A DNA stretch of 64,000 nucleotides from positions 62,001-126,000 of IMG/VR virus record IMGVR_UViG_3300009093_000035; one strand, 5' to 3'. The stretch's first letter is position 1; the number at the start of each line of letters is the position of its first letter. A program made the translations under genes and the position numbers. The notes beneath the pieces are model-generated. The model was not told the origin of the DNA. It saw only the letters and a program-made list of their open reading frames with translations, and did not search any database. Shown here piece after piece: positions 4,889 through 51,482 of the stretch. Origin of the DNA: a virus.

Positions 4889-4961
4889 AGAAGTGGGTCC
4901 GTCCCTGGAAGAGGCATAGCTGCTAAACCGCTCTACCCTCGATGGGGCGTAAGGTCCTACC

Positions 4962-21619: not shown

Positions 21620-21943
21620 TCAGCTCTTCAGAGCGATCGTGTCGGCCACGTCGTCGCGGATGTCCTTCATCGTCGAGAGAGTGGCGTCGAGAAGCTTCAC
21701 GGCGGTGAGGAGATCTTCGCCGGAAGACATTCGAGCCTTGCTCAAGATCTTGAAACACTCCCAGACGTTGAGGTTCGCTGCCTTCAGTTCGACGGCGCGT
21801 CCTTCGAGGAAGCGACGCTGGATGAGGGACATTTCGCCCCAATCGACCCGCCCCTCCTTCAGGAGGGGAAGGATCGAAGGACGAAGCTCCGGCTTCGCGT
21901 GAGCGAGACGGATCAGCTTCGAACGAAGGTGACGTTCCTTCAC
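21620..21943 (-). CDS. Small protein with N-terminal IRLAH tag (107 aa)
   Basis: The start GTG 21943 follows GAGGAG. Residues 6-31 are LRSKLIRLAHAKPELR then PSILPLLKEG, the same tag seen at the N-termini of several unrelated proteins in this genome. The remaining 75 residues are helical, and no family is recognised. The tag position directly after the start, ending KEG, fits a targeting propeptide cut after Lys-Glu; this is an inference from comparison between the genes. Confidence 0.6.
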   Translation of the reverse strand: MKERHLRSKLIRLAHAKPELRPSILPLLKEGRVDWGEMSLIQRRFLEGRAVELKAANLNVWECFKILSKARMSSGEDLLTAVKLLDATLSTMKDIRDDVADTIALKS

Positions 21944-21952
21944 GGGCTCTCC

Positions 21953-24900
21953 TCAGGAGGGGTTCTGGACAGAGACGCGGAACGTCATCTGGATGTAGAG
22001 CAGCGGGAAGACCGGGACGTAGAAGGCGTTCACGAGAACCGCCGTCGGATCTTCCGGGTCGGTCGCCACGGTGATACCCGTGAAGCTCGTGATGATCTGT
22101 TCCTGGACCGCTCGCTTGAACATCTCGGAGAGACGTCCCTCGATCTGGCCGAGGATCTGCGGGAGGAACTTGACACCGATGAACGGGTCGAGTTCCGCTC
22201 GCGCGCGCTTCTGCATGTCGTCGGCGATCTGGATGACCGTCGGGATCCTCGACAGGATGTTCGACATGTCCGACGTGAGGCCGTGTCGGATCCGGAGGAA
22301 GGGAAGACGCTCCTCCAGGACCGTGACGCCGCGCTGAGCGACCTGGTTGGCCTGGACCGCGTCGAGACGCCGCGCGAGAGCCGTGAAGCCCGAGAGCTGG
22401 CGACCCGTCCACGGCGTGGCCGAGTCGATCGAGGGCGAGGTCGTGCTCGCCGCGACCGCAGCCGCGAGGTAGCGACCGTCCGAGAGGTACTGCTTCGAGT
22501 TCCCCAGGGCGTCGGTCAGCGAGAAGGTGACGATGTCCGGGTAGATGAACCGGACGCGGCTCGCGCCGGTCGCCTGAGCGATCGTCCCGGCCTGGATCGG
22601 CTGGGTGCCCGAGGCGTAGCCGAAGATCGCCGTCCGCTCCGCACGGTAGCGGATCGAGGACTGGACGTCGCAGTGGATGGCCGTCTGCTTCGCGAGGTTC
22701 GCCGTCGCCGGGGTGAGGAGGACGATCACGGTCGGGGAGATGTTCCCCGGCAGAGAATCGCCTTCGAGCGCCCGGAGAGCGTCGAGGTACGTCTGCTCGC
22801 TCGCCTGGGACGATCCCGGGGTCTTCTTGACCTGGTAGGTCGCGATCACCGAGGAACCGTTCAGGAACGAGAAGTAGGCCGCGAGGGAGAGCGGGTTGTC
22901 GGGGCTGACGTCACCGTACTCCGCCACGACGTCCGAGAGACGCGAGAAGAACTTCGGGGTGAAGTCCTGCTTCTCGAAGTTGTAGCTGACGTAGTAGACC
23001 GTTCCGATCGAGGGCTCGTCGCCCGTCTTCTTGAAGGTCTCGACGAAGGCCGAGTCGCCCACGACCACGCCGTTCGTGTTCGTGACGATCAGCTCGATAC
23101 CCGGGACCGCGAGGGTCGGGATGTTGCCGTCGGTGGTGAAGGTCTTGCTCGACCGGAAGGTGAGCGTCGCGAGGGCGCCAACCGGGTACGGGATCCCGCC
23201 GTCGCGCGGAAGGATCGTGAAGACCAATCCCGTCACGTCGTCGTAGTAGGTCTGACCCACCACGCCGTCCTGACCGACGCCGTTGTTGAAGACCGAGGTG
23301 TTGGCCGAACCCGAGCCCGAGGTCGGATCCGACGAGGTCACGAAGAACCCGTCGATCGCCGCCTCGCCCGAAGCCCCGTCCGCCGACGTGATCAGGAGCA
23401 TCGTCCCGGTCACGAGAGCGTTGTGGGACGTGGCGTCGGCGAAGTCGATCGAGGAACCGACTCCGAGCGTCTGGCTCTGGAAGTAGAGGTAGACGTTGTT
23501 CGTCGAGTCCTTCTGGATACCGGCGAGAGCGCGGCCCGCGAAGTAGTTCACGTCCGGGGTCGCGAAGGCGGTCATGAAGGTCACGAAGGCGCCAGACGCC
23601 CCCGCGTGGTTCATGAGCACCGAGCCCATCTGGAGCGCCGAGACCGACGTCGGAGCCGCCGAGCTGTCGGGGGTGAACCCGAGGGTGTCGTTCGCGCTTC
23701 CCGATCCGATCACGAGGGTCGAAGCCGGACCGACTCCGCCACCGGTGAGGCGAATCGAAGCGCCTTCCTGAAGGACTCCGACCGTCGCGGAAAGACCCGC
23801 CGCCACGATCGCGGCGTTGATCTGGCCGAGGACCGAGCCCGCGACCGTGACCGGCCCGAGAGCCGTATCCGTCCCGGGACCCGAGGCCGCGAAGACGCAG
23901 GTCACGAGACCGCCGCCCGCCGTGAAGGTCAGGACGTTGTTCGCGGGGTTGCTCGGATCCGACCCGTCGAAGAAGGTGACGTTCGGCTGACCGTCACGGC
24001 TGTCGCCGAACGTCGCCGCAGCGACCTGACCGCCCGACCAGCCCGTGAGGGCGAGAAGGGTGGGGGCCTTCACGTTCGCGCCGTAGGCCGCTTCCGCCGT
24101 GACTCCGTTGAGGAGACCGGACTTCACCGCGCCGGTTCCACCCTGGAGGGTGATTCCGGCCTGGGCGAGAGCGGAGTTGAAGGCGATCGAGTTCCCGCCG
24201 ATGAAGAGGCGGTTCCGGAGGATGATCCGGTCGTAGGGGAGGCGACCTGCCGTCGTCGTCACCGTGTAGCGACGAGCGATCGGGCCGTTGTAGACCTTGA
24301 CCTGGTCGCCGTTCGTCGCAGCGGCCGTCGAGAGACCGGCCAGGATCGCGAAGTCGCGAGCCGGAGTGGCGTTCGTGATGAACTCCAGGTAACCCGCAGC
24401 GTCGGCGCCCGCGAGCGTCGCCCCAGACCACGTCGCACCCGTGACGGTCGTCGTCGTGGTGATCGAGTTCGAGCCGAGGCCCTGGCTCTTCGCCGTGACT
24501 CGCATCGTCGTACCGGGGCCCTGAGCCGCCGAGACGACGGGGTTGAGCGTGGTCGAAGCCGCGTAGGTCGAGCCAGCGCCCGTTCCGAGGTTGATGGCGT
24601 TGATCAGGTTCGTGATCGAGGCCGCCGTCGACCCGCCGATCAGGACGTGTCCGTCCACGTCGGTGAGGACGGTCTGGAAGGTGTAGACCTTTCCGTTGAT
24701 GGTGACGGTCTGGGTATCCGTCGGCTGACCCGTGAAGGTCAGGAGACCCGTCGACCGAGCGATCGTGAGGGTGAACCGGATCTGACCCGAGGCGAGAGCC
24801 GAAGCCGTCACCGACCCGAGGAGACCGCCCGTGGCGTTGATCGTGGCCAGCTGGGTGTTGAGCTGGGCGACGAGAGCGCCTACCGAGGCGTAGGTGCCGG

Positions 24901-27259
24901 GGGTGAGGGTGACCGTCTGGATACCCGACGCGCCGGACACGCTTCCCGTGTAGTGGAGAGAGAGGCGGTCGTACTCGTTCGCCGCGACGGTGTACGCGGT
25001 GAACTGACCCGCTCCGTCGTAGCGGGACTCGTGACCCGCCGTGAGAACCGCCGCGTTGATCGCGGAGACCCAGGTAGCCGCCGTCGCCGATCCGACGGTT
25101 CCCGTCGAGACCGAGACCGGGACGCCGTCCACGACCATGTTGATCGTGTCGTCGACTCCGGAGGTGAGGCCGTAGGTGGTCTCACCCGTCGCCGGGTCGT
25201 ACTTGATCTCTTCGCCGAGAAGCGAGGCGAACGCGCCGGCTCGATTCCCGCCCGTCGGAGACGAGAGGTCGATACCAGCCGCGATACCCGTCTGGGCCGG
25301 AAGCCCGTCGATCGTGAGACGGAGGGCGTCGGAGATGTTGTCGATCGTGTAGTACGGCTGCGGGCCGAGGTTGGTGAACCGGGCCGGGGTCTCGTCGCTT
25401 CGAGCGAACTCGACCGTGACGGTCTCCTCGACGGGGACGCCGCCTTCGATCCGCGCGTCCGGGAAGAACTCCGAACCCGAGGGGAAGTTGATCTGGACCG
25501 TCGTGAGGTCAGAGCCCTTCCCCGTGAGGAACACGTCGAATAGCGAGGCTCCTGACCCGTTCACGAGGGAGTAGGTTCCGATCCCGCCCGCGCCCGCCGT
25601 CACGTTCGTGAGCGTGTAGGCGTGGCTCGAACCGATGTTCGCCTGGTCGACGAGGGTGTTGTAGTAGAAGGTCGCGTAGACCGAGGCGCCTTCCGGCACC
25701 GGGGACTTCAGCGTGATCGAGGAAGTCGTGTCGTCGACCTTCAGGACCGTGACCACCCCGCGAGCGAGAGCGTCCTGGACGCCGAAGCCCCAGTAAGCCT
25801 TGATCAGGTCCGGACGGGTCGTCGCGAGATCCGAACGGCCGTTCGAGACCGTGAGGAAGAGCGACTCACCGAGCGGGTTGCCGCGACCGTTGCCCGTCGT
25901 GGGCTGGAACGGAAGCTGGAAGACCGTCCGACTCTCGACCGCGACCGGGCCGGTGTTGTCCACCGTCGGGGTGCAGGAGGCCATGAAGACCTGGTTGTCG
26001 ACGAGCGTCGCCTGGATCTGGGACGTACCGAGCGTCACTCCGCCTTCGGTGTGGGTCGCGGGGGAAACGAGCGCCGCCGTACCCCAGACGATCACGTCAT
26101 CCTTCAGGACGTACGAGACGCCCTGGACGAAGGTGCCGGCCGTCGACCCGTCGGGGGTGAGACCAACCTGGGTGATCGCCGTGACGCCGATGTTGGCGAG
26201 GTAGTCGAACGTGTCCTGCCAGGTGTTGAAGTAGTAGCGGATCTTCACCGTCGAGGTCTTCGCCGGAGCGAAGGGGAGCGTCACGGCGCGAGCCGTTCCG
26301 TTCACAGCGCTCGGGATGACCTGGACTCCGTCCACCGTGACGACCACGTCCGCCGGGTTCGTCGTCGTGAGACCGCCGCCGTTCCCGTCCACGATCGGGC
26401 CGTTGAACACGTAGAAGGTACGGTTCCGCGACGTCGAGGCGTTCGGCACGAAGCCGAGCGTCGTATTCGCCGTCCCCGTTCCGATCACGATCGACTGGTC
26501 CGCCGAGAGGCGGAGGCAGACCTGACCGAGGTTGTTCACGAAGGTCGAAGCGACCAGCGAGCCGATCCCCGCAGTCCCGTTGATCGTGGCCGCCACGACC
26601 GCCGCCGACACGGACGGGGCCGACGAGGGCATCGTGACCGTGACGAAGGAGAGCCCGTCCACCGAGAAGGTGAACTGGTCGTTCGCGCCGAGGATGAAGG
26701 CGAAGTTCTGGCCGGCCTGGCCATCGATCACGGCCGCGTCCGAGGAGACCTGGTCCGAGACGTCGTCCGTCGTCAGGGTGTCGGTCCGGTCGAAGAAGTA
26801 GGTGCAGCGGACCGAGTCCGTCGGAAGCGGCGCCTCCGCGATCTCGACGATCCCCTTCGCCGCGTCGAGTCCGAGGACCACGACCGGGAAGTTGTTGATC
26901 AGGACCGAGACCGAACTCGTGTCGGTCGCGAGCGTCCCCGTCCCGTCGCCCGAAACGAGCGGAAGGTTGCGGACCTGGAACTTCGTGATCGTCCCGTCGA
27001 AGTCACCGAGGGTGACCAGGCCGCTCGGGGAAACGTTGAGAACCGCCCTTCCCGACTCGTCCTCTTCCGTGACCTGCTGGTCGATCGTCGAGGACGAGCC
27101 TCGGACCACCGGCAAGTTCTGACGAGACAGGATCTCCGTACCCGTTCCGACGAGAACGGTGATACGGGCGGGGACAGGCACCGGTGTGTTCGGGACCCCG
27201 AAGAACGTCTGGGTGTAGACGCCCGGGGGTGCATATCCGCCACGAAGAAGACTCGGCAT
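21953..27259 (-). CDS. Giant contractile tail sheath protein (1768 aa)
   Basis: The N-terminus GGYAPPGVYTQTFFG and the last about 360 residues match the two halves of phage tail sheath proteins, including the segment from FETFKKTGDE through NLAKQTAIHCDVQSS to LLYIQMTFRVSVQNPS. Sheaths are usually about 400-700 residues. Here more than 1,000 residues of beta-rich material separate the two ends. One inserted domain near residues 845-950 (VTINGKVYTFQ, then ITNLINAINLGTGAG) is of a type seen in phage fibre and head decoration proteins. I start at ATG 27259, which has AGGAG upstream, rather than the in-frame TTG ten codons earlier. The insertion would project from the tail surface. Confidence 0.82.
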   Translation of the reverse strand: MPSLLRGGYAPPGVYTQTFFGVPNTPVPVPARITVLVGTGTEILSRQNLPVVRGSSSTIDQQVTEEDESGRAVLNVSPSGLVTLGDFDGTITKFQVRNLPLVSGDGTGTLATDTSSVSVLINNFPVVVLGLDAAKGIVEIAEAPLPTDSVRCTYFFDRTDTLTTDDVSDQVSSDAAVIDGQAGQNFAFILGANDQFTFSVDGLSFVTVTMPSSAPSVSAAVVAATINGTAGIGSLVASTFVNNLGQVCLRLSADQSIVIGTGTANTTLGFVPNASTSRNRTFYVFNGPIVDGNGGGLTTTNPADVVVTVDGVQVIPSAVNGTARAVTLPFAPAKTSTVKIRYYFNTWQDTFDYLANIGVTAITQVGLTPDGSTAGTFVQGVSYVLKDDVIVWGTAALVSPATHTEGGVTLGTSQIQATLVDNQVFMASCTPTVDNTGPVAVESRTVFQLPFQPTTGNGRGNPLGESLFLTVSNGRSDLATTRPDLIKAYWGFGVQDALARGVVTVLKVDDTTSSITLKSPVPEGASVYATFYYNTLVDQANIGSSHAYTLTNVTAGAGGIGTYSLVNGSGASLFDVFLTGKGSDLTTVQINFPSGSEFFPDARIEGGVPVEETVTVEFARSDETPARFTNLGPQPYYTIDNISDALRLTIDGLPAQTGIAAGIDLSSPTGGNRAGAFASLLGEEIKYDPATGETTYGLTSGVDDTINMVVDGVPVSVSTGTVGSATAATWVSAINAAVLTAGHESRYDGAGQFTAYTVAANEYDRLSLHYTGSVSGASGIQTVTLTPGTYASVGALVAQLNTQLATINATGGLLGSVTASALASGQIRFTLTIARSTGLLTFTGQPTDTQTVTINGKVYTFQTVLTDVDGHVLIGGSTAASITNLINAINLGTGAGSTYAASTTLNPVVSAAQGPGTTMRVTAKSQGLGSNSITTTTTVTGATWSGATLAGADAAGYLEFITNATPARDFAILAGLSTAAATNGDQVKVYNGPIARRYTVTTTAGRLPYDRIILRNRLFIGGNSIAFNSALAQAGITLQGGTGAVKSGLLNGVTAEAAYGANVKAPTLLALTGWSGGQVAAATFGDSRDGQPNVTFFDGSDPSNPANNVLTFTAGGGLVTCVFAASGPGTDTALGPVTVAGSVLGQINAAIVAAGLSATVGVLQEGASIRLTGGGVGPASTLVIGSGSANDTLGFTPDSSAAPTSVSALQMGSVLMNHAGASGAFVTFMTAFATPDVNYFAGRALAGIQKDSTNNVYLYFQSQTLGVGSSIDFADATSHNALVTGTMLLITSADGASGEAAIDGFFVTSSDPTSGSGSANTSVFNNGVGQDGVVGQTYYDDVTGLVFTILPRDGGIPYPVGALATLTFRSSKTFTTDGNIPTLAVPGIELIVTNTNGVVVGDSAFVETFKKTGDEPSIGTVYYVSYNFEKQDFTPKFFSRLSDVVAEYGDVSPDNPLSLAAYFSFLNGSSVIATYQVKKTPGSSQASEQTYLDALRALEGDSLPGNISPTVIVLLTPATANLAKQTAIHCDVQSSIRYRAERTAIFGYASGTQPIQAGTIAQATGASRVRFIYPDIVTFSLTDALGNSKQYLSDGRYLAAAVAASTTSPSIDSATPWTGRQLSGFTALARRLDAVQANQVAQRGVTVLEERLPFLRIRHGLTSDMSNILSRIPTVIQIADDMQKRARAELDPFIGVKFLPQILGQIEGRLSEMFKRAVQEQIITSFTGITVATDPEDPTAVLVNAFYVPVFPLLYIQMTFRVSVQNPS

Positions 27260-27278
27260 GGTTCTCGCGCTCCTGAGT

Positions 27279-27295
27279 CTCGGGTTCAAACCGAG
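27279..27295 (-). promoter_or_regulatory. Leader hairpin upstream of sheath gene
   Basis: CTCGG (27279-27283) and CCGAG (27291-27295) form a five-pair stem with a seven-base loop. It is upstream of the AGGAG site of the sheath gene. It could shape translation of this highly expressed structural gene. There is no T-run, so it is not an obvious terminator. Confidence 0.4.
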
Positions 27296-33201: not shown

Positions 33202-34683
33202 TCAGCCGTTCGGAAGGACCGGCAGGCCCTTCTTCGGCTTCGCCGGAACCGGAGGCGAGTAGACCCCGATCTTGAAGTCAGGCATACGGAGCGCCTTCGC
33301 AGAGCCGTACAACTCCGAGCCGCACCGCGCCTTCCCCGGCTCTTCCTTGTTGTCATCCGAACAGGAGAGACAACCCGTCGGCGGGCACTCCTCGACCTCG
33401 GTGAACGGAGCGCCCGGGGTCTTCCGAGTGAACATCGGAACGCGATGCCCATGGCACTGGTCGGCGGTTAGGAACTCCTTCCCGATCGATACGCCGGTCT
33501 TGTTGATAACCTCTCCCGCCTCATTCCGGACCATCTTGTACTCGTAGCACGTCGCGTACGTGAGACCGAGTCGCTTCGCCGCCGCCTGATAGAGACGATG
33601 ACCGACGATCCGATACTCCTCGGCGATCGTCTTCTGGCCCCCGATGTTCTCCGTGAACAGGCTCTCGAAGACCTTCCCGCGCTCGTCCCCGAAGCGAGAC
33701 TGAATACGCTTCACCATCGCCGGAGCCCAAGAGTAACCGGCCTCGACGAACTTCACGATGACGTGGTCGGCCCCGGCCGCCCTCAGCATCTCGAAGATCT
33801 CGATCACACCCGTATGGTCCACGACACCGGGAAGGATCGGATTGACCTGGATGGAGACGTAGATTCCGCGCTTCTTCAGCTCGCGGATGTCGTCCATGTG
33901 CTCTTCGAGAGAAGCCGCCCCCGGAGAGAGCTTCTTCCAATCCTTCGGGTTCGCCGTGTTGATCGACTTCTGGGCGTAGCTGTACGGGTTCTTCTGGAGC
34001 ATATCGATCGCCCAGCCCGGATACCGGAGACGCGAAAGGAAGAAGATCGGAAGACCCGCGTCCACGAACGCCTGAGCGCCATGCTGGGTGTTGTGGTAGT
34101 AGTTCTCCAAGGGGAGGAACGGATCCGTGAAGCTGGAGAAGTAGCCGGCCGCCGAGGTCTGCATCTTCCCCAGGGCCTTCTTAACCTGGTCCCCGTAGCC
34201 CATCGGGACGCTCACGAGCCCGGAGCCTCGGTAGCCCTTGAAACCGGAGTTGATGTAGCAGAAGGCGCAGCCCACCGTACAGAAGCCTCCGTACGGCTGG
34301 GTGAGGATCGCGTCCGTGAAGCACGGACGGTCTCGAACCCCCTTCGGTTCGGTCTTCGCCTTGTACCAACCCTGGAGCGGGCGCATCGCGTCGATACGGA
34401 TGTGTGGGATCGGATCGAGGAAGACCTGAAGGACGTGCTTGTCTTCGTCCTTCGCGCCCCGGACCATCCCGATCCTCATCTTCCGGGACCGTAGGCCAGT
34501 CTCGGGCTCGACCTCGATGTCCCCCGCTACGTCCTTCGGCTCGGGACGCATGAAGAAGTCGTAGGCCTTCCTAGTGCTCTCCGCGACCCCGCCGGTAGCC
34601 AGCGCCACCTCGTCGGCGACCGCCTCTTCAGGGGTCTCTTCGTCGGCGTTGTTCTCATCCAGCCACGTCAGGATCTGGTCCAT
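33202..34683 (-). CDS. Radical SAM enzyme (493 aa)
   Basis: GGFCTVGCAFCYIN gives C135-x3-C139-x2-C142, the ligands of the 4Fe-4S cluster of radical S-adenosylmethionine enzymes. A TIM-barrel pattern follows (SFTDPFLPLE, FFLSRL, YVSIQVNP, DHVIVKFVEAGYSW), closest in style to spore-photoproduct-lyase-like members. A C-terminal cluster, ECPPTGCLSC and ARCG, could hold a second metal site. ATG 34683 has TAGGAG upstream. It directly follows a gene of the amino acid:DNA transferase family, so a step in thymidine hypermodification is a reasonable inference. DNA repair of the photolyase type is the main alternative. Confidence 0.8.
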   Translation of the reverse strand: MDQILTWLDENNADEETPEEAVADEVALATGGVAESTRKAYDFFMRPEPKDVAGDIEVEPETGLRSRKMRIGMVRGAKDEDKHVLQVFLDPIPHIRIDAMRPLQGWYKAKTEPKGVRDRPCFTDAILTQPYGGFCTVGCAFCYINSGFKGYRGSGLVSVPMGYGDQVKKALGKMQTSAAGYFSSFTDPFLPLENYYHNTQHGAQAFVDAGLPIFFLSRLRYPGWAIDMLQKNPYSYAQKSINTANPKDWKKLSPGAASLEEHMDDIRELKKRGIYVSIQVNPILPGVVDHTGVIEIFEMLRAAGADHVIVKFVEAGYSWAPAMVKRIQSRFGDERGKVFESLFTENIGGQKTIAEEYRIVGHRLYQAAAKRLGLTYATCYEYKMVRNEAGEVINKTGVSIGKEFLTADQCHGHRVPMFTRKTPGAPFTEVEECPPTGCLSCSDDNKEEPGKARCGSELYGSAKALRMPDFKIGVYSPPVPAKPKKGLPVLPNG

Positions 34684-35667: not shown

Positions 35668-38136
35668 TTACGCTGCGACGGGAGGCGTGGTCGAGTAGTG
35701 CTCGGACTTCACGTACACGGTGATCACGAGACCATTCGGAAGAACGAAGAACGTCCCCTCTTCCTTCTCGGCCTTCGTGAGCTTCGCGTCCGGGAACTTC
35801 GTCGTGAACTGCTCGGAGGTGTAGGCGATCGCGTCGAGCGAGTCCGGCACGAGACCCGTCGCCCCGACGTAGAACGCGAGGGGACGGATCCGGTCGTAGA
35901 ACGACTCCACGACGCCTTCGATCCCTTCCAGCGCGTCGTGAACCGCCGCGACAGCCTCGTCACGATCCGCCCCGCGGACCGTCTTCATGAAGTCCTTCCC
36001 GTCGAAGTCCGGGATCAGCTTCATGGTCTTCTGGAGGTCGTCCTCCGACCCGAGACCGAGGAAGCCCTCGTAGATCGGGTACGAGATCGTGTCCACGTAG
36101 TTGAGCTGGGTCCGAGCGGAGAGCTTCTTCACCCCGGTCTTCGCACCGCGAGCGATCTGATCGAGAGTCGGCTTCTCCACTTCCTTCCCGAGGAACTCCA
36201 TGGTGAAGCGACGCTGGAGGTACTCGTTCCCGGAACTGAGCTTCGTCACCGCGGTGAGGCTGGGGACACCGACGTCGATCTTGTACGAAAGACGCGTGTC
36301 GACCTTTCCTTCGGCGATCGCCTTCGCGAGGTCCGCGTACTCGGTCGTCATCGGAGGAGTGAAGTTGAGGGCCGGGCTGAGGTAGTGGGTCTTCAGCTCT
36401 GCGACCTGCTCCGTGGTGTACGAAGCCGACTCGCCCTTGAACATCCCTCCGAGGATCTTCGAGAGGACCGTCAGCTTCGCGAGGCCCACGACCTCGTCCG
36501 GCGAGATCGTGTCGAAGGACGTGTCGTACGCGATCAGCGGAAGATCCGAGAAGTCGATCACGAAGGGCTCGTTCGGCTTGTACTCGCCGGTGACGACGCC
36601 GAGATCCTTCAGCTCGCGGAACGTCCGCTTGTCCGAGGTACGGAAGATGAGCTGGTTGACGTTCAGCGACCCGTCCCCCACGAGCGTGTAGTTGTTGAAG
36701 GAACGGAGCTTCGAGAGGTCCACCCCGGAGACCGAGGCGACCTTCGTCGTCCCGCCGACCGGGTAGATGTCGATCTCTTGGGAGACGAGCATGTTGACCG
36801 TCGCGTTGTTGCGATTGATCTCGAACTTGTTGACCGAGACCCACTCCTCGCCCGCGTTGCGGTAACGCTGCTCGTACTTCGGGGGAGTGACCGTCCCGTC
36901 TTCCTCACGTGCTCCCGGGATGCGCTTCACTCCACGGCGCTTGTAGCCCGCGAGGAGCGTCTTCAGGTTGACCGAGAGCGACGAGGAGCCCCGGTCGAGG
37001 ACCGAGAGAACCGCGAGAACCGAAGCCCCGTTCGACGGAAGACCGAAGTCGACCGAACGATCGTACTTCATCCCGCCCGCGAGAACGTCCTCGATCGCCG
37101 CTGCAAACGCCGCGACGTCCGACGAGACGAGAGCCTTCGCGTGCTTCTTCAGGAGGTCGCCGTTCTTCGAGGCCACGACCGCGTACTTCGCGGCGTTGAG
37201 GCGGCCTTCGCTGATCGCGGCGCGGGCGTACGCGAGGATCGCGACGGCCGAATTCGTGTCGAGAGTCTCCGGAGCCTTCAGCTTCTCGTAGGTCTCCTCG
37301 GAGATCTCGAAGTAGCGGAAGGCCACTCGATCGTCCTTCTCGGAGAGACCGCGAACCACGATCCCCTCCGTCGACCCGAGGACCTTCCGAGCCGCGACCG
37401 AGGCGAACGTGACGTAGTCGGCGTCGCCGATCCCCGCCTCCAGGGCCGGAGACATCGAGCCCGCGAGGAGCGCTGTCGCCCCGTAGAGGGCGTCGTAGAC
37501 CTGCTTCACGTTCTTCGCCTGGATGCACGAACCCGAGAGGGCGTTCGAGATCGAGGAGAGGAGGTTGAAGTCGCAGTAGTCGCGGTAGGCGATCGTGTTG
37601 ACGAAGACGTTCGGGTGCTTCTTCAGCGCCGTCGTGACGGCGGCGATCGCCGCGCTCTCTGCCGTCGGGGACCGATCGTTCGCCCATCCGTCCGTGTGAA
37701 GCGAGACGCACGTCGTCTCCTTGTCGTCGATCAGGGTCTCCGCCATCACGAGGCCCTGGGAGATGCAGGTCATCGCCGTCGCCCGAATCGAGCGGATCTC
37801 CTTCAGCTGAGGGCTGTTCGCCTTCATGACGTCCGCGACCGTCGCTCCCTTGAAGTGGAGCTTCACGTCGCCCGAGGACGAGTAGGTGATGAGAGAGACC
37901 TTCAGGGTCGGGTCGTCGAACTCACCGAGGGTCAGGAGCTTCTCGACCATCGACTTCAGATCCGCCAAGTCGTAGGCCATCGAGCCCGACCGGTCGATCA
38001 CGAAGATGTGATGGGCGGGGTTCTTCTTGGCGATCGCGGCCTGAGACGAGAAGTCGTCCCGCTCGACACGGAAGAACGTCAGGGGCTTCCCTGAATAGGA
38101 GCGAAGCGCGAACTTGGTTGTCTCGGATTTGGACAT
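35668..38136 (-). CDS. von Willebrand A-domain protein (822 aa)
   Basis: Residues about 42-230 form a VWA domain with a complete metal-ion-dependent adhesion site: DRSGS (D48, S50, S52), T123 and D149 in HTDGW. The rest, about 590 residues, is an unrecognised alpha/beta region without transmembrane segments. There is no signal peptide, so it works in the cytoplasm or virion. Phage VWA proteins are often linked to a MoxR-type ATPase, but none is beside it. It is followed ten bases later by the transferase gene, so the three may form one transcription unit. Start ATG 38136. Confidence 0.75.
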   Translation of the reverse strand: MSKSETTKFALRSYSGKPLTFFRVERDDFSSQAAIAKKNPAHHIFVIDRSGSMAYDLADLKSMVEKLLTLGEFDDPTLKVSLITYSSSGDVKLHFKGATVADVMKANSPQLKEIRSIRATAMTCISQGLVMAETLIDDKETTCVSLHTDGWANDRSPTAESAAIAAVTTALKKHPNVFVNTIAYRDYCDFNLLSSISNALSGSCIQAKNVKQVYDALYGATALLAGSMSPALEAGIGDADYVTFASVAARKVLGSTEGIVVRGLSEKDDRVAFRYFEISEETYEKLKAPETLDTNSAVAILAYARAAISEGRLNAAKYAVVASKNGDLLKKHAKALVSSDVAAFAAAIEDVLAGGMKYDRSVDFGLPSNGASVLAVLSVLDRGSSSLSVNLKTLLAGYKRRGVKRIPGAREEDGTVTPPKYEQRYRNAGEEWVSVNKFEINRNNATVNMLVSQEIDIYPVGGTTKVASVSGVDLSKLRSFNNYTLVGDGSLNVNQLIFRTSDKRTFRELKDLGVVTGEYKPNEPFVIDFSDLPLIAYDTSFDTISPDEVVGLAKLTVLSKILGGMFKGESASYTTEQVAELKTHYLSPALNFTPPMTTEYADLAKAIAEGKVDTRLSYKIDVGVPSLTAVTKLSSGNEYLQRRFTMEFLGKEVEKPTLDQIARGAKTGVKKLSARTQLNYVDTISYPIYEGFLGLGSEDDLQKTMKLIPDFDGKDFMKTVRGADRDEAVAAVHDALEGIEGVVESFYDRIRPLAFYVGATGLVPDSLDAIAYTSEQFTTKFPDAKLTKAEKEEGTFFVLPNGLVITVYVKSEHYSTTPPVAA

Positions 38137-38199: not shown

Positions 38200-38679
38200 T
38201 CAGCGAGACTTCTTCTTCAAGTAGTCGGAAGCGCCCTTTGCCGTGAGCTTCGCGTTCTCCGCTACTTCCTTCGCGGCCTCCTGAATCAAGTTCTCGATAT
38301 CCGAGACCTTCTCGTCGGCGTCCAACAAGGTGTCGACGACCTCTTGAGCCTTCTTCGAGTTCATGTCCGCGAGAGCTTCCATCATGTCGCCATACAGCTC
38401 ATCGAGTTCCCCCTGGCCGACCTCGGCGGTCTTCCCAAGAAGCGGAAGGATCTCCGAACGGATCTCCGGCTTCTCGTGAGCGAGACGAATCAGGGATCGG
38501 CGAAGAGAGGAATGCTTGTTCACTTGGATAGCCCGTTCTTGGTTCTCGGCTTTGTCTTTGGAGGGATGGCGTCCCAACAGCCGGTCCCCGTCGCTCGTGT
38601 AGAGACACCACTTCTGCTCGTCGGCGGGACGGTCGTCCTGATCGGAGGGACGACACTCATGGATGACCGCCTTCTTCAT
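38200..38679 (-). CDS. Composite protein with internal IRLAH tag (159 aa)
   Basis: Residues 22-56 (KWCLYTSDGDRLLGRHPS, then KDKAENQERAIQVNKH) are a small domain widespread in phage proteins, with a WxLYxxxGxxLLG strand pair and a QERAIQVxKH helix. It is joined directly to the shared tag LRRSLIRLAHEKPEIR, SEILPLLGKTA (residues 59-85). The final 75 residues are helical (ELYGDMMEALADMNSKKAQE). Here the tag is not N-terminal. It begins a run of four tagged genes. Confidence 0.6.
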   Translation of the reverse strand: MKKAVIHECRPSDQDDRPADEQKWCLYTSDGDRLLGRHPSKDKAENQERAIQVNKHSSLRRSLIRLAHEKPEIRSEILPLLGKTAEVGQGELDELYGDMMEALADMNSKKAQEVVDTLLDADEKVSDIENLIQEAAKEVAENAKLTAKGASDYLKKKSR

Positions 38680-38682
38680 CGC

Positions 38683-39123
38683 TCAGTCGATGAAGCCGTA
38701 GTCCCGGCCGCGACCGGAATCGTTGGACCAACCCCACCGACCCTCTTCCGGGTCGAAGCCGACGCGACCGATCGACTTGCCGTTCGTGCCGCCGTTCGGA
38801 TGGACGTAGTCCCAAGAAAGAGACCCGCCGAGGCCGCCCTGGGCGTCCGACCACCACTCGATCGAGATCGAGATCTCCGAGAAGAGAGACGAGAAGCCCT
38901 TCGGCACCTCGACCTTGACTGAGTTCTCGTTGAGGTTCGACCACTTCACCGGAGCGTCGATCTTCTTGAGAAGAACGTTGATCGCTTCGAGGGCCTTCTT
39001 CTTCGCCTCGTCGTCGAGCTGAGGAAGCCGACCGGCCTTCTTCTCCAGAAGGGGAAGGATCTCCGAGCGGATCTCGGGGTTCGCGTGGGCGAGACGAATC
39101 AGGGAACGACGGAGGGATGCCAT
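38683..39123 (-). CDS. N-terminally IRLAH-tagged protein (146 aa)
   Basis: MASLRRSLIRLAHANPEIR, SEILPLLEKKA occupies residues 1-29. The remainder is a small alpha/beta domain (DAPVKWSNLNENSVKVEVP; EISISIEWWSDAQGG) of unknown family. The ATG is 39123. The tag is nearly identical to that of the neighbour at 38200, so these two copies may have duplicated recently. If the tag is removed after KKA, the mature protein is about 117 residues. Confidence 0.6.
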   Translation of the reverse strand: MASLRRSLIRLAHANPEIRSEILPLLEKKAGRLPQLDDEAKKKALEAINVLLKKIDAPVKWSNLNENSVKVEVPKGFSSLFSEISISIEWWSDAQGGLGGSLSWDYVHPNGGTNGKSIGRVGFDPEEGRWGWSNDSGRGRDYGFID

Positions 39124-39156
39124 GCCTCCGCCGTTTCAAAGAGAATCCACCGAGGG

Positions 39157-39759
39157 CTACTCCGCGGCGATCCCGTAGAACAAGAAGCCGACCGCCGAGC
39201 CCTGGAGCACGATGTCTCCACGGACCTCCCAAGAGCCGAACCCGAACTTGTCCTTCTCGCCCGTGTCTCGGACACTTCGGATCTTCCCCGGAAGAGCGCC
39301 GCTCGCCCGAGCCCAAGTCCCGAAGGCGGATCGAGCCTCCTCGTCCGAATCGGCTCGAAGCACGACCTTCTTCGCCTTCGTCTCAGCTCGGCCGGAGACG
39401 ACTGGGATCGCAAACGCCGGACCCGACTTCGGGTTGTGTCTCACGTCCTGATTGGCGTAGGTCTTTGCCTCCGCAAGGGTCATGCCCTTCGCCCTGAGGA
39501 CGAACCCCTTCCCGGCCTTCTCCAGGATCGTCCCCGAGTACCCGCCCTCGGAATCGTCGTCACGATACGACCGAACGTCGTTCTCCGCGTCCTGTACGAG
39601 CTTCTCGAAGACCTTCTTCGGATCCGTCCCCTCGCCGTACTCCTGGAACTCGGCGCCGCCTGCGGTCTTCGAGAGGAGCGAAAGAAGTGCCGGTCGTAGC
39701 TCGGGCTTCGAGTGCGCGAGACGGATGAGCTTTCGACGCAGCTTGAGGTCGGGGGTCAC
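39157..39759 (-). CDS. N-terminally IRLAH-tagged protein (200 aa)
   Basis: The start GTG 39757-39759 follows GGAGG. The tag LRRKLIRLAHSKPELR, PALLSLLSKTA covers residues 7-33. The rest is an alpha/beta protein with two similar halves: TLAEAKTYANQDVRHNPKSG and KKVVLRADSDEEARSAFGTW each look like a short strand-helix repeat. No known family. Third in the tandem set of tagged genes. Confidence 0.6.
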   Translation of the reverse strand: MTPDLKLRRKLIRLAHSKPELRPALLSLLSKTAGGAEFQEYGEGTDPKKVFEKLVQDAENDVRSYRDDDSEGGYSGTILEKAGKGFVLRAKGMTLAEAKTYANQDVRHNPKSGPAFAIPVVSGRAETKAKKVVLRADSDEEARSAFGTWARASGALPGKIRSVRDTGEKDKFGFGSWEVRGDIVLQGSAVGFLFYGIAAE

Positions 39760-39793
39760 AGACCTCCGACCTCAAAGGAACTCCACCGAAGGT

Positions 39794-40492
39794 TCAGGGC
39801 TGAGGCGTCGTCGGCTTCTGGAGCCGTTCGGAGACCTCGATGATCTGGTGGGCCGGAATCCAGCGCGTATCCCGCTCCAGAGGCGGGCGAACGTTTCGAC
39901 CAGTGTTCTGGTTCATCGTCCAGAACACCCAGCGAAGACGGTCCTCCTCTTCGCGCGAGCGGAACTTCTCCTTCACGACCCCGACCTTCCCGGTCTTGAA
40001 GTTCACCCCGTTCACGGTCTCTTCGCGAACCGGGCCGTCCTTGTACTGGATCCGAACCTTGTCGCCCGGCTTCAGGTTCAGCTCTTCGAGCTTCTTCCGA
40101 CCCGGCTCCGCAGCGTCGTCCTTCGCGTCCATCCGGTCCTGACGACGGTCGAGAAGCTCGGCCTTCTCCTTCTCGGTCTTCGCCTTGTCGGCCTTTCCGA
40201 CGTAGCGGATCACCTTCGCGTTCGCGTCGTAGCGGGAACCCTTCGCGGGGAAGCGAAGGTCCCCCGCCGACGAAGAGAGCAGAAGTTCGGCGTTCCCGGT
40301 TCGCTTCGTCGTGACGCTGACGATCGTAGCGGGAATCCAACCCTTCCGCGTCTGGACTTCGACGGAGTCCCCTTCGTGGAAGTACCCGTCCGAAGGCGCA
40401 GCTTCCTTCAAGATCGGGATGAGGTGCTCGCGAAGCTCGGGCTTCTCGTGAGCGAGACGGATCGTCTTCGAGCGGAGTTCGTCGTCGTTCAT
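39794..40492 (-). CDS. N-terminally IRLAH-tagged protein with SH3-like barrels (232 aa)
   Basis: ATG 40492 has AGGAGG upstream. The tag LRSKTIRLAHEKPELR, EHLIPILKEAA is at residues 5-32. It is followed by a small barrel (DSVEVQTRKGWIPATIVSVT) and a second one (PGDKVRIQYKDGPVREETVN), each resembling KOW/SH3-like folds that bind nucleic acid or protein. The end is Arg/Pro-rich. First gene of the four-gene tagged run in transcription order. Confidence 0.6.
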   Translation of the reverse strand: MNDDELRSKTIRLAHEKPELREHLIPILKEAAPSDGYFHEGDSVEVQTRKGWIPATIVSVTTKRTGNAELLLSSSAGDLRFPAKGSRYDANAKVIRYVGKADKAKTEKEKAELLDRRQDRMDAKDDAAEPGRKKLEELNLKPGDKVRIQYKDGPVREETVNGVNFKTGKVGVVKEKFRSREEEDRLRWVFWTMNQNTGRNVRPPLERDTRWIPAHQIIEVSERLQKPTTPQP

Positions 40493-43324: not shown

Positions 43325-43543
43325 CTATTCGTTCAGGAAGATCCGGATGGAGCACCGAGGACACCCGACGTACTTCCGGTCTGACGAGACCATGTAGAAG
43401 GGATCCTCTTCGGTATGGATCTCCGAACGACCGAAGGTGAACTCGGCCTTACATCGACCGCAGGTCGCCCGACCGATCTGAAGCTCCCCGCAGCGAGAGG
43501 CGCGAGACTGACGACGAGCTTTCCGTTGGGAGCGCCCGCTCAC
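43325..43543 (-). CDS. Small zinc-ribbon protein (72 aa)
   Basis: The GTG start overlaps the TGA of the RNA ligase gene (GTGA), with GGAG just upstream. An Arg/Ser-rich N-terminus is followed by ATCGRCKAEF and VGCPRCSI, two CxxC pairs separated by about 30 residues, forming a zinc ribbon. Coupling to the ligase gene suggests a nucleic-acid-related job. Confidence 0.6.
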   Translation of the reverse strand: MSGRSQRKARRQSRASRCGELQIGRATCGRCKAEFTFGRSEIHTEEDPFYMVSSDRKYVGCPRCSIRIFLNE

Positions 43544-44658
43544 GCCTTCTCCAGGTACCGATTCCCGACGAGCTTCAAGATCACGCGGCCCAACTGAGGG
43601 TCGATCCGCTCGACCTCGGGTTTGACCACGACGCCTTCGGCGTAGTGGGGCTTGAATTTTCCCCCGCTGAGGACACTGTCGGCTTCAGCGAGAGCTTCGA
43701 TCCCCTCGGCGAGGAAAGGTCCGCGATAGACGACAGGAACGCGAGACAGACCGTCCCGACCGTCGCCTCCGAACAGATCCCGAGCGTCCATCCACTTCCG
43801 GTCCCCGAGGTAGACGTCAAAGACGAGGAACGCGGGAAACCCCTGTGGGATCCCGTAGTGCATCTTCTTCGTCGACCGGAAGACCTCGCCGTAGAGGATC
43901 TTGTCTTCGTTTGCTCGGCACCACGTCTCGATCCACGGGTTGGCTCTCAGAGCCGCCCAGAAGACCGACGGGTTCTGGCTCCGGTCCCAGGCCTTCAGGT
44001 CGAGATCTCCGCCCATCTTCCCGGTCCCGGTGTCGATCGTGACGATTCCTGGCTCGACGCTCTCGTCCGGAGGACGCTTCCATTCCGTCCGAGACCCCAC
44101 CCACATCCGACCTCCGCGGAAGGCGTAGCGGGCGCTCTCCCCGTTGATCTTCTCCGTGACGATCACCGGTTCCCCTGGAGTGAAGAGGTCTCGCCACTTC
44201 CTCTTCGTGGCCCTCTCCCCTCCGCGGAAGTTCTCCATGTCGTAGGCGGAGAGATGGGCGAGAGAATCGATCGGACGCTCGCCTTCCTGGCTCTGGATGT
44301 TCGCGTATGGATCGTAGCGGACGATCCCGAGGCGCTCCATGACGTTGTCCCCTTCGGAGACCTTGTCCTTCAACGCCCCGAGCTTCATCAGGAGCCCCTG
44401 GGAGTAGATCCCACGGAACTTCCGGACCTTGATTCGGCGATCGTCGGTCGGTAGGTAGCTCCAGAGAGACGAGAAGGGATGCTCGTTCCCCGGCAAGACG
44501 TAGTCCGGCTCGACGTAGATCGCGAGGTCTCCCGTCGCGAAGTCTTCCGTGCGGACGACGCACGTGTACCCGTCGATCTCGACAAGGCCCAGGGTATCCG
44601 CGGCGGGGTGCTTCTTCACCTCACCGAGTCGAATCACGAAGACGCCGTGGGTACTCAT
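43540..44658 (-). CDS. RNA ligase, DraRnl (Rnl5)-like (372 aa)
   Basis: The N-terminal about 110 residues (VFVIRLGEVKKHPAADTLGL, then GDLAIYVEPDYVLP) match the OB-like domain of Deinococcus-type RNA ligases. The nucleotidyltransferase domain carries motif I EKINGESARY (Lys about 170, adenylated), motif III YGEVFRS (about 256), motif IV AEGVVVKPE (about 341) and motif V ILKLVGNRYL (about 361). It should seal 3'-OH/5'-phosphate ends in RNA. ATG overlaps the upstream TGA and the stop overlaps the next GTG, so it lies inside a tightly coupled operon. Confidence 0.85.
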   Translation of the reverse strand: MSTHGVFVIRLGEVKKHPAADTLGLVEIDGYTCVVRTEDFATGDLAIYVEPDYVLPGNEHPFSSLWSYLPTDDRRIKVRKFRGIYSQGLLMKLGALKDKVSEGDNVMERLGIVRYDPYANIQSQEGERPIDSLAHLSAYDMENFRGGERATKRKWRDLFTPGEPVIVTEKINGESARYAFRGGRMWVGSRTEWKRPPDESVEPGIVTIDTGTGKMGGDLDLKAWDRSQNPSVFWAALRANPWIETWCRANEDKILYGEVFRSTKKMHYGIPQGFPAFLVFDVYLGDRKWMDARDLFGGDGRDGLSRVPVVYRGPFLAEGIEALAEADSVLSGGKFKPHYAEGVVVKPEVERIDPQLGRVILKLVGNRYLEKA

Positions 44659-48500: not shown

Positions 48501-48844
48501 TGTCGGCCTATCGCGACCCCCCTGGACGTTCCCCGTGTCCGTACCACTGTCGTCAAATAGCAGCGGCCGGATGGGGTGAGGGATGGACCGGGTTGTGGAA
48601 CTGGGAGTGCGTAATGTGTAAGGCGCGCGCTCCCATGTGGAGGTGGATTCTTCTGCCCTTCCTCCCTACCCTCTCTCACATACCGCTGGGACCCGGTCCC
48701 TACCATGTAGTCGACCCGAGACTGACGGAAGCTGAAGCTCTGAGAGTCGGGTGGACGAAAGAACAGATCCAGAAAGAGCGAAAGACGGGCTTACCGAATC
48801 AGCTCGATCGGTGGAAAGAATGGACCTGGGGAGAGCTTCCTTAG
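48500..48844 (+). CDS. Small Cys-pair protein with hydrophobic segment (114 aa)
   Basis: ATG shares its A with the TGA of the ligase gene. Residues 13-40 carry CPYHC and CVMC, a likely zinc site. A hydrophobic stretch (MWRWILLPFLPTLSHI) follows. The C-terminal helix has LTEAEALRVGWTKEQIQKER. It converges on the tagged gene with a four-base overlap. Unknown function. Confidence 0.55.
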   Translation: MSAYRDPPGRSPCPYHCRQIAAAGWGEGWTGLWNWECVMCKARAPMWRWILLPFLPTLSHIPLGPGPYHVVDPRLTEAEALRVGWTKEQIQKERKTGLPNQLDRWKEWTWGELP

Positions 48845-49416
48845 AAGGTCGCCCCGAGCTTCCGTAGGTACGCGAGAAGGCCATCGACCTTCGGATTCGG
48901 TACCTTGCTCTTCTGGATATCGATGAGCTTCCCGATCTGAACCGGGTCCGTCTCCTCGATCGAGATCTCCCCGGTGTCCGAAGCCCGAAGAGTTGCAACG
49001 GGCCTCGGGAGCCTCTCGTTGAAGAACACGAAGAGGAGATCTCCGCCGGCCGGGTCGTGCTTCACGATCACCGGATCTCGGACGTAGAGACCCTTCGCCG
49101 ACCACTGGATGTCGTTCCGAACGTTGGAGATCGCCCGGTAGGCCGGCGACATGAGGAGAGCGAGGTTCGCTTCGAGCTTTGCCTGAAGGAAGTTCGCCGC
49201 TTCGTCGTCTCCGATCTCCCGAAGATGGGGGATCAGGTCGTCCGAAGTGACGAACCCGGTCGAGCGAACCGCCTCGTTGATGCGCTCCTGTAGCTCACCC
49301 GAGAACTCGGCCTTCTTCGAAACCGGCTCCTTCGCTTCCTTCAGGAGCGGTAGGAGGATCGGACGAAGCCCGGGGTTCTCGTGGGCCAGGCGGATCATCT
49401 TCGAACGGAGAGTCAT
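48841..49416 (-). CDS. N-terminally IRLAH-tagged protein (191 aa)
   Basis: MTLRSKMIRLAHENPGLR, PILLPLLKEA occupies residues 1-28. The rest is a small alpha/beta domain (DLIPHLREIGDDEAANFLQA; LLFVFFNERLPRPVATLRAS) that I cannot assign. It is far from the tandem tagged set but has the same tag ending KEA, which supports a common processing or sorting step. Confidence 0.6.
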   Translation of the reverse strand: MTLRSKMIRLAHENPGLRPILLPLLKEAKEPVSKKAEFSGELQERINEAVRSTGFVTSDDLIPHLREIGDDEAANFLQAKLEANLALLMSPAYRAISNVRNDIQWSAKGLYVRDPVIVKHDPAGGDLLFVFFNERLPRPVATLRASDTGEISIEETDPVQIGKLIDIQKSKVPNPKVDGLLAYLRKLGATF

Positions 49417-49440: not shown

Positions 49441-50502
49441 CTAGCTGCCCAAGGCCTCTTCGAACTTGGAGGACAGGTCCGGGGAGAGCTTCCCGAGGGC
49501 GTAGAGGGCGAACAGTTCCGCGAAGAACTCCTCCACCGTCTTCGAGGAATACGGGGTAGGGAACTTCGCCACTACAGCCCGCTCTTCGAGAATCTTTCGG
49601 ACGGTCCTCTTGACTACGAATCCGCCCCCCGAGAGACCGTACCGGTACCCGTCGTCGGATTCAATTACTGGAGGCGGACCTCGGCGGTTGGAGAGAGGGA
49701 TTGGAAACACATCCCCCACTTTCGGCATCTCTACCTGGACTCCAGAGGATCGCTTCATCAAGTAGTAGAAGCGGTTGAAGGCCTCCAGGACAGGCTTCGG
49801 AGCGAACTTGTACCAGTACCGGTGTCCCAGCTCGTGACACAGGGTGTCGAGGTCGTCGAACCCTCTCTTGGCCATCGATCGGATGTAGACGTCGTCTTCC
49901 GAAAGCGAGTACCAGGCGAGAGTCCGGGCGTTCTTGATTTGACCTACGACGTAGACGTCTCCGTAGAGGACCTTCTTGAAGTCGCGGGTCGCTGAGAGGA
50001 TCCGATTCGCGCTCTCGAAGAGACTCTGGATCTCATTGAACTGATTCGCGTCCGCCCCCACGGTGTTGTGCACCTTGAAGGGTCCGACGGTCGCTTCCTG
50101 AGTTCCGCCGGATACTCGTTCGGGCCAATCCGAAGCCTCCGAAAGGAACTGGAGCCAGGGCTTGTTCTTGTCGTACCAACCGATGACGTCCTTCTGTTGG
50201 CGCTTCGAAGCGAGAAGGGCCCGCGAAGCCAACTCCAAGAACTTCTCTTTCCCAGGAGGGATCTCTCGGGTCTGAAGCAGCCACTCCACTAGCGAACGAC
50301 CCGACACGATCGTGGGGATGTACCCGTACGTGTTCAAGATCAAGCCGTTGGGCTTCGCCCTCCCCCGCTGTTCGGAGACGTTCTCGGCGAGAGAATCGAC
50401 GGACATCCGATAGTCGGACACCAGTTTCGATGGGTTGTCCCACCCCTTCGCTCGAACGTACCGAGACGCCACCCTTACCTCGCTAGGAGCGCGTAGAACC
50501 AC
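49441..50502 (-). CDS. Zinc metalloprotease with HELGH motif (353 aa)
   Basis: LCHELGHRYWYKF (about residue 219) is an HExxH zinc site, and VEEFFAELFALYALG (about 323) could give the third ligand Glu, as in gluzincins. There is no signal peptide. The N-terminus SEVRVASRYVRAKG resembles the RVAxRF motif of other proteins here, hinting at co-packaging in the virion. GTG 50502 is the start, with AAGGAG upstream. Target unknown. Confidence 0.75.
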   Translation of the reverse strand: MVLRAPSEVRVASRYVRAKGWDNPSKLVSDYRMSVDSLAENVSEQRGRAKPNGLILNTYGYIPTIVSGRSLVEWLLQTREIPPGKEKFLELASRALLASKRQQKDVIGWYDKNKPWLQFLSEASDWPERVSGGTQEATVGPFKVHNTVGADANQFNEIQSLFESANRILSATRDFKKVLYGDVYVVGQIKNARTLAWYSLSEDDVYIRSMAKRGFDDLDTLCHELGHRYWYKFAPKPVLEAFNRFYYLMKRSSGVQVEMPKVGDVFPIPLSNRRGPPPVIESDDGYRYGLSGGGFVVKRTVRKILEERAVVAKFPTPYSSKTVEEFFAELFALYALGKLSPDLSSKFEEALGS

Positions 50503-50531: not shown

Positions 50532-51482
50532 TCAGAGGGCCTTCGAGAAGGTAGAGGAGAAGTCGGAGGCGATCGTTGCGGCTACCGTGGCTACGGCCTT
50601 CTTCGCGGTGAAGACGAGACCCATCTCTCGGTTCGAGGCAAGAGAAGCGTGGGTCAAGTTCTGAGAGCCTACGAACGCAGTCTTCCCGTCTACCACGAAC
50701 GCTTTCGCGTGGATGTAGGGCTTCGTTACGATCCGAACCGGAATCCCGGAAAGCGTCAGTTGATCCGTAGCTGCCTTCCCAGCGGGAGACTCCATCGCAT
50801 CCGACATCACGACGCGAATCGCTACCCCGCGGGCCGCCGCGGACTTCAGGGTCGCGATCGTATTGGCGTCGCTGATCTCCTCGTCCTCCAGATCGATCGT
50901 TTTCTTCGCTCCGGACAGAAGGTCGTGGATGGTCGACTTCGCGTTCAACGGAGAGACCACCAGGGAGCCCGCGTAGGTGGAGATCGGAGTCCCTGCAAAG
51001 TCCCCCTCGAAGACGGCCTCAGCGTCCGCTACGACCTTCGGAAGGGTCGCTACAACCAGGAACTCCCGATTCGACTTCAGCGCCGCCGTAGTGGCGTTCA
51101 TCGTCATGATCCAGGCGGTCTTCCCATCCAGAATCACCGACTTCTGATGGGTGAGAGAGAAGTGGGAAGGGGCCCAGACTACCTTCACCCCAGCAGCTGC
51201 TAGGACGGCGAACTCGTCGTTGTTGTTGTTCGAGAGGCCTGGGTTGAACCTCTGATTGAGGATTACTCGAACGTCGAGCCCGGCCTTCTGGCGATCGATC
51301 AAGGCGTCGATCACGGCCTGAGAAGACAGGAGGTACATCGTCATGTGTACCGAGGTCTTCGCCATCCGAATCGCCTTTACCAGGGCCACGCCAGAGTCCC
51401 CCGGCTCCACTATCACCCGAACGGAACCTCGGGGAATCGAAGCCCTTCGAATCTTCCGGTTTCTGTTCGGGTTGTGGCCCAC
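50532..51482 (-). CDS. Phospholipase D-like protein with two HKD motifs (316 aa)
   Basis: Two HxKx4D motifs are present: HQKSVILD (about residue 111) and HAKAFVVD (about 255), each followed by an Asn-containing loop (MTMN, GSQN). This is the bipartite active site of the PLD superfamily. No signal peptide or membrane anchor is seen, so a nuclease or cytoplasmic phosphodiesterase is as likely as a lipase. The start GTG at 51482 follows AAGGG. Located between the metalloprotease and HU genes. Confidence 0.8.
   Translation of the reverse strand: MGHNPNRNRKIRRASIPRGSVRVIVEPGDSGVALVKAIRMAKTSVHMTMYLLSSQAVIDALIDRQKAGLDVRVILNQRFNPGLSNNNNDEFAVLAAAGVKVVWAPSHFSLTHQKSVILDGKTAWIMTMNATTAALKSNREFLVVATLPKVVADAEAVFEGDFAGTPISTYAGSLVVSPLNAKSTIHDLLSGAKKTIDLEDEEISDANTIATLKSAAARGVAIRVVMSDAMESPAGKAATDQLTLSGIPVRIVTKPYIHAKAFVVDGKTAFVGSQNLTHASLASNREMGLVFTAKKAVATVAATIASDFSSTFSKAL

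Follow-up and report, generated by a model that had tools for sequence, protein, structure and literature searches.

A peptide of about 27 residues, here designated tag A, is present on seven otherwise unrelated proteins encoded in the window analysed here, a 64,000-nucleotide stretch comprising bases 62001-126000 of the IMG/VR virus record IMGVR_UViG_3300009093_000035 (248,579 bp; G000 below). Tag A is probably (a chance of about three in four) a capsid-targeting or head-loading propeptide, which would dock its cargo in the prohead and be cut by the head protease at [K/R]-x-[A/G], the cargo being freed and then injected. The tag occurs at different positions in its proteins, is interchanged with a second tag, is flanked by a short motif concentrated in genes of the head interior, and is found in phages that share a head lineage. 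Coordinates refer to the window unless G000 or another record is named.

Tag A and its distribution

The consensus of tag A is LRxxLIRLAHxxPELRxxLLPLL, and in most copies K-x-A or K-x-G comes next. Translation located it in all seven genes in which an earlier note on the window had reported it, each on the minus strand. A four-gene cluster encodes proteins of 159 residues (38200-38679; tag A at 38425-38505, between a small N-terminal domain weakly matching phrog_3684 and a GKTA junction with a helical C-terminal part), 146 residues (38683-39123; N-terminal tag at 39034-39114, junction EKKAG), 200 residues (39157-39759; N-terminal tag at 39661-39741, junction SKTAGG) and 232 residues (39794-40492; N-terminal tag at 40397-40477, junction KEAAP, with a borderline SH3-like cargo that scored 21.5 bits against the SH3_2 cut-off of 21.8). 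The other three proteins have 107 residues (21620-21943; N-terminal tag at 21854-21928), 191 residues (48841-49416; N-terminal tag at 49336-49410, junction KEAK) and 417 residues (62554-63807; tag at 63439-63516). The 3' part of a further tagged minus-strand gene (G000 125809-126447) lies at 63812-64000, with its tag outside the window at G000 126358-126438. Five of the seven tags had been described as N-terminal and two as lying behind a small domain; the latter arrangement stands for 38200-38679, which has no start codon beside the tag, and is doubtful for 62554-63807, in which the tag either follows a domain of approximately 95 residues or may be N-terminal, because an ATG immediately precedes it (..KRA-MTNLRS..). 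Outside the tag the seven proteins show no matches to each other and none above Pfam cut-offs, in keeping with their description as unrelated.

A hidden Markov model (HMM) built from the seven copies and scanned against all stop-to-stop open reading frames (ORFs) of G000 retrieved 12 copies and no more, with E between 8.9e-12 and 1.3e-16 and all in frame in minus-strand reading frames, and the first match below them was noise (E=0.45), a gap that rules out chance similarity. Besides the copy at G000 126358-126438, those outside the window are at G000 141358-141426, 186949-187029, 188336-188407 and 206458-206538. Among the 12 copies, identity was 76.8% at codon positions 1 and 2 and 53.3% at position 3, and the same codon was used at matching residues with a frequency of 0.53 against 0.42 expected from codon usage, a modest excess. 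Since the third positions have diverged while the residues match, tag A is maintained as a peptide and not as DNA. A coding repeat that is selfish or was copied recently, inserted in frame and functionless like the Rickettsia palindromic elements, would explain why unrelated genes of one genome carry so many copies, at N-terminal, internal and C-terminal sites, but the residues are conserved over diverged third positions, 12 of 12 copies are in frame, and orthologous cargo retains a tag while shifting its position or type. This explanation is hardly credible and was rejected on the codon-position divergence and the relocation of the tag in orthologs.

A scan of IMG/VR gave 35 tag A loci in 27 records besides G000, with 1-17 copies apiece, and an iterated profile gave 173 distinct instances across the loci examined. 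The only tag-bearing record with an INPHARED accession was LR745208, from an uncultured phage of 485 kb, in which 11 copies were counted. As the earlier note had anticipated, the profile search of phage genomes found the tag at the start of many non-homologous proteins (118-124 N-terminal tags), and internal and C-terminal tags were also found. Within the sensitivity of the pattern, 84,980 prokaryote genomes yielded no relative, which speaks against a cellular interaction domain, the case that the note had set against its own proposal. Its statement that the motif had no named family was borne out: tag A matched no Pfam, PHROG or PDB family, a PDB profile search gave chance-level matches only, and the motif is unnamed in the open literature searched, a coverage that excludes subscription papers and most preprints.

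Position, cargo and exchange of the tags

About 124 tags have a methionine no more than 8 residues upstream and 33 are internal or C-terminal, some at the very end of the protein. Internal and true C-terminal copies are common, and the view of tag A as an essentially N-terminal element did not hold. Homologous cargo was compared between phages with the tags masked. In one cargo family the tag is N-terminal in loci L025, L031, L042 and L089 and C-terminal in L026 and L092; a second family has it at the C-terminus in L029 and L034 and at the N-terminus in L044 and L090. Tags are present at both ends of the proteins at L028:12217 and L076:2422, and three tags are found in L032 and L049. On these sequence comparisons, the tag relocates between the ends of homologous cargo.

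The tagged cargo of related records includes ART-PolyVal, DUF3990, LPD1, ParB-like, WGR, SWIM, pentapeptide-repeat, RNA ligase and DUF2958 domains, of which some matches fall below the curated cut-off and none comes from the seven window genes. The LPD1 protein also has a HELSH zincin motif. Domains typical of polyvalent or injected effectors (ART-PolyVal, LPD1, ParB-like, zincin) occur in several tagged proteins, over or near the cut-off. Polyvalent proteins have been predicted to be packaged in the head and injected (Iyer et al. 2017, PMC5512222), and the injected ADP-ribosyltransferase Alt of T4 is a known precedent (PMC5512222). The tagged gene at G000 186496-188115 has an ART-like YHGTS stretch seen by eye, with no Pfam match. 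A widespread small helical domain (LHWSHWTSHWQ...), Dps/ferritin-like by eye, was observed in L087:1735-3507, L018:7663-8490 (G000 217660-218466) and their homologs, and whether it bears a tag differs between phages.

Tag A is replaced in at least three cargo families by a shorter element, tag B ([RK]VAxR[FHYW]L, with [KR]TA[GS] often coming after it), the forms found on homologs being RVAxR[FHYW]L or KVAFRHL. An ADP-ribosyltransferase has tag B (SPIKVAFRHLLQGAK) in L023, in place of the tag A of its L028 and L041 counterparts; the phrog_37844 protein carries tag A in six records and tag B (MNNQFQRVARRWLLSNA) in L092; and the window protein 39157-39759, with tag A and SKTAGG, has a homolog at L049:7901-8755 that starts with tag B (MSLAQRVASRHLMKKTAGG) and has the same KTAGG junction. 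Some homologs that lack tag A also lack an obvious tag B. The strict form RVAxR[FY] occurs 8 times in G000 against 0.16 in shuffles, and tag B often stands there beside K-[TKE]-A-[SG]. Tag B sites of G000 outside the window are in 149738-152974, 161224-161823, 202620-204176 and 209629-210528. Those of the window are in three minus-strand genes. The first, 49441-50502, adjoins a tag A gene and encodes a zincin-like protein (CHELGH; no Pfam match) with N-terminal tag B (SEVRVASRYVRA), likely to be cargo; the second, 59339-60094, encodes a 251-residue protein with an N-terminal RKTAS site and two tag B copies (ERVAHRFLSA, DRVAERFLEA); and the third, 56664-58763, encodes a SWIM-type zinc-finger protein in which KKASS and KEASSQRVAS sites lie internally, and homologs of which carry C-terminal tag A in L091 and C-terminal tag B in L070.

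Head lineage and junction motif

The head operon of G000 (143-158 kb) encodes the major capsid protein (MCP; G000 143445-144323, phrog_2522, E 4e-49), a lysine/glutamate-rich core-like protein (G000 145459-146985), the head maturation protease (G000 146982-148427, phrog_18299, E 5e-16), the portal (E 5e-32), the large terminase (TerL; E 1e-26) and a protein of 1,078 residues (G000 149738-152974, equivalent to L014:11738-14974). In the last, a HAD domain (PF10307) is fused to a DNA topoisomerase IB core of eukaryotic type (PF01028, E 1.4e-25) and to an extended C-terminal half; tag B (TAPSRVASRYLLA) marks the join, and by position and composition the protein would be core-like. Tag B is also present on its homolog in record G001 (MALRVAQAFLKVA), in which it is followed directly by FSTEEAKKKYLEEHPDADADSHTV, a third motif designated motif C (AMEFPTxEALKKYLxEHPDADxxxHTV). 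Motif C was found in L028, L032, L049, L051, L071, L076, L085, L086, L087, L025 and L029, and in G000 a simple pattern found none. Because it follows tag A on several cargo proteins and tag B on the head-operon homolog, motif C ties the two tags and the head operon together. A tblastn search with the tag plus motif C returned only LR745208 and a Synechococcus match (E=4), which was taken as chance.

The G000-type MCP (74-96% identical) is present in 18 of 26 tag-bearing records, as is the G000-type head protease. When records were chosen by their MCP alone, 13 of 20 carried tag A, among them records of 372 kb and 497 kb with 18 and 24 copies, respectively. The named relatives of this MCP are those of Tunturiibacter phage Tunturi_5 (49% identity), Bacillus phage G (39%) and the Mycobacterium cluster C phages (about 28%), and 501 MCP-like matches were found in IMG/VR. 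Judged by the shared MCP and by the tags in the records picked with it, there is a phage-G-like head lineage in which tag A is a trait of one branch. PF03420 (Peptidase_S77, the gp21 type) gave no match in 22 records in a search that was silent in control genomes too; the protease present in the tag-bearing lineage matches phrog_18299. In several records (G013, G023, G006 and G025; L130/L136, L131, L133/L146 and L134) an intein interrupts the active-site motif of the protease between LSMG and C (GTLSMGCFLPGTQV), the intein of G013 matching the Pfam entries Hom_end_hint, LAGLIDADG_3 and Intein_splicing. The G024 protease gives the same kind of split match, and in G000 the active-site STLSMGCSID is uninterrupted.

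The tag might instead address proteins to a site outside the virion in the infected cell, in a manner unrelated to the head; a replication compartment, a membrane and the RNA polymerase of the phage are examples of such sites. Most of the cargo has no known function, and the RNA ligase, SWIM and ParB-like proteins could have cytoplasmic roles in the cell that produces the phage. The tie of tag A to one capsid lineage, the presence on head-operon proteins of the tag B that swaps with it on homologous cargo, and the occurrence of motif C after tag A on cargo and after tag B on the core protein make such an address very unlikely.

The [KR]x[AG] motif stands at the end of 103 of 118 N-terminal tags, with the narrower K-x-A step predicted by the earlier note in 81 of the 118. 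The T4-type motif [LI]xE lies near the end of 38 of the 118 and the SPN3US-type AxE near 16, and both were set aside as cleavage motifs because they fit more poorly than [KR]x[AG]; only 1 of the 15 tags without [KR]x[AG] has [LI]xE. Upstream of the internal and C-terminal tags, [KR][KQR]A was found in 13 of 33 cases, where windows drawn from the same proteins gave an expectation of 1.2 and no more than 7 in any of 2,000 draws. The tetrapeptide K[TKEQRS]A[SGAD] occurs at 29 sites in the head region of G000 against 5.7 when each protein was shuffled, at 11 against 2.2 in the 205-213 kb region and, mildly increased, at 12 against 4.1 in the 213-248 kb region, and is near expectation elsewhere. 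In the isolate Tunturi_5 the counts are 11 for the annotated DNA ejection protein, where 1.1 are expected, four for the core-like protein, one for the MCP, one for the protease and close to zero for tail genes. In each of the homologs of the conserved head-region protein G000 161224-161823, a variable tag-B-like leader precedes [RK]TAGEVRF or a sequence very like it. The counts at tag ends, the upstream sites, the enrichment in head-region and Tunturi_5 proteins and the conserved [RK]TAGEVRF together point to the [KR]x[AG]-type junction as the cleavage motif of the head protease.

An AlphaFold2 model of the tagged phrog_37844 protein of G000, from a seven-sequence alignment, had a mean pLDDT (predicted local distance difference test) of 82.5 and a pTM (predicted template modelling score) of 0.49. 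The tag was modelled as two helices (residues 2-14 and 16-30) that break near the conserved proline, with a pLDDT of 73-87 over the tag block, and was followed by mostly coil and then by beta-rich cargo. Tag A is therefore predicted to form a short two-helix hairpin; a fold search with the modelled protein gave no meaningful match (best E 0.019, low TM score). This prediction, of fair confidence, would also suit a hairpin adaptor that docks proteins on an internal virion structure and stays uncut, its K/A-rich junctions being flexible linkers or helix caps. Tags that function at either protein end, tags without K-x-A and the common use of small residues as linkers past a helix agree with such an adaptor, but the enrichment of the tetrapeptide beyond composition is confined to head-region genes and to head-interior proteins of Tunturi_5, K-x-A also stands upstream of internal tags, where the argument from a helix C-cap fails, and the [RK]TAG junction is constant while the leader before it varies. 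An uncut adaptor is accordingly unlikely.

Other features of the window include a DNA photolyase-like protein near the tagged cluster (33202-34683; phrog_9252, E 7e-195), an 822-residue protein with a vWA domain directly downstream of the four tagged genes (35668-38136; PF13519; phrog_2426, E 5e-25), an RNA-ligase-like protein with the motif VTEKINGESARY seen by eye (43540-44658), and a protein with two HxK stretches and, by eye, the look of a phospholipase D, which matches phrog_12711 of unknown function (50532-51482). Four huge minus-strand ORFs of 1,180-1,778 residues (473-5002, 7216-12270, 14147-17689 and 21953-27289), with no PHROG match, probably encode tail or baseplate proteins. No Rfam or tRNA features were found in the window, and 20 kb of it gave no match to phages by megablast.

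Proposed role and related systems

We propose that tag A would dock proteins onto the internal core or the inner face of the prohead during head assembly, and that the head maturation protease would then cut beside the tag at [K/R]-x-[A/G]. The cargo would be freed inside the head and injected together with the DNA. Tags within or at the end of a protein have a similar K-x-A on their upstream side, and their excision would be possible too; the shorter tag B may do the same job, in exchange for tag A. Core binding, cutting, presence in the virion and injection are inferred here from sequence. The head-packaged, protease-cleaved set envisaged in the earlier note gains strong indirect support from the single head lineage with its protease, from the [KR]x[AG] sites at the junctions and in head-interior proteins, from the polyvalent domains of the cargo and from the exchange with tag B, which also means that tag A is not the sole tag. 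On balance we think it somewhat probable that at least two unrelated, exchangeable tags, acting at either protein end, form a head address code by which dozens of proteins are recruited and then cut at [KR]-x-[A/G].

Several observations weigh against a cleaved head-loading propeptide. About 15 of the 118 N-terminal tags lack [KR]x[AG], and the C-terminal tags stop just past the hairpin. The KTA near the N-terminus of the MCP is not conserved (several have KTPQG), only [KR]LAAS being so, and this N-terminus was dropped as proof of cleavage at KTA. Tunturi_5, phage G and Myrna have related heads and no tag A, and two records of the MCP lineage (141 and 376 kb) lack it as well; lineage phages without it may perhaps rely on tag B. 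A full MCP match is missing from eight tag-bearing records; one of the eight has the terminase, most are small fragments, and two are of 152 and 222 kb.

The nearest functional parallel is the capsid-targeting sequence (CTS) of T4, a short peptide that directs the dissimilar internal proteins IPI-III, with diverse anti-host cargo, to the prohead core and is removed by gp21 (PMC9026906). Tag A is likewise a short peptide common to dissimilar small proteins, for which head loading and removal are proposed here. In contrast to the CTS, of which 10 residues are needed for IPIII, it has about 27 residues, is a predicted helical hairpin with no sequence similarity noted, is bordered by [KR]x[AG] and not [LI]xE, lies at the N-terminus, the C-terminus or internally, and is one of two exchangeable tags with up to 24 copies in one record. 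Because the defining T4 cleavage motif fits poorly and the motif, length, freedom of position and number of tags differ, the system is best read as analogous and not homologous to the T4 CTS, and is not classed as a CTS. The giant phages phiKZ and SPN3US have heads with many ejected and inner-body proteins bearing N-terminal propeptides, which the prohead protease cuts at AXE (PMC10052503). Giant-phage heads, N-terminal propeptides and a short cut motif, with cutting presumed here, are points of likeness, whereas those propeptides have 20-254 residues, no common cargo tag is described in the relevant sections of PMC10052503, and AXE is near only 16 of the 118 tags. With the polyvalent proteins the cargo shares ART-PolyVal, LPD1, ParB-like and zincin domains (PMC5512222), but it is mostly small and united by a detachable tag, and no such tag is named in the relevant sections of PMC5512222. 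The head modules of phage G, Tunturi_5 and the cluster C phages have a homologous MCP, and Tunturi_5 also shares the protease and has K-x-A-rich core-like and ejection proteins. The publication on Tunturi_5 mentions neither mass spectrometry nor SDS-PAGE.

The head-borne proteins that are first to enter the host are known for few phages, and their identification normally requires virion proteomics. If the proposed role is correct, a scan for the tags would list the injected proteins from sequence alone across a widespread lineage with genomes of up to approximately 500 kb or more, nearly all of it uncultured. The proteins so listed, mostly without known function, would be candidate host-takeover and anti-defence factors, and a pair of exchangeable tags that act irrespective of position would suggest a means by which proteins might be loaded into the heads of phages.

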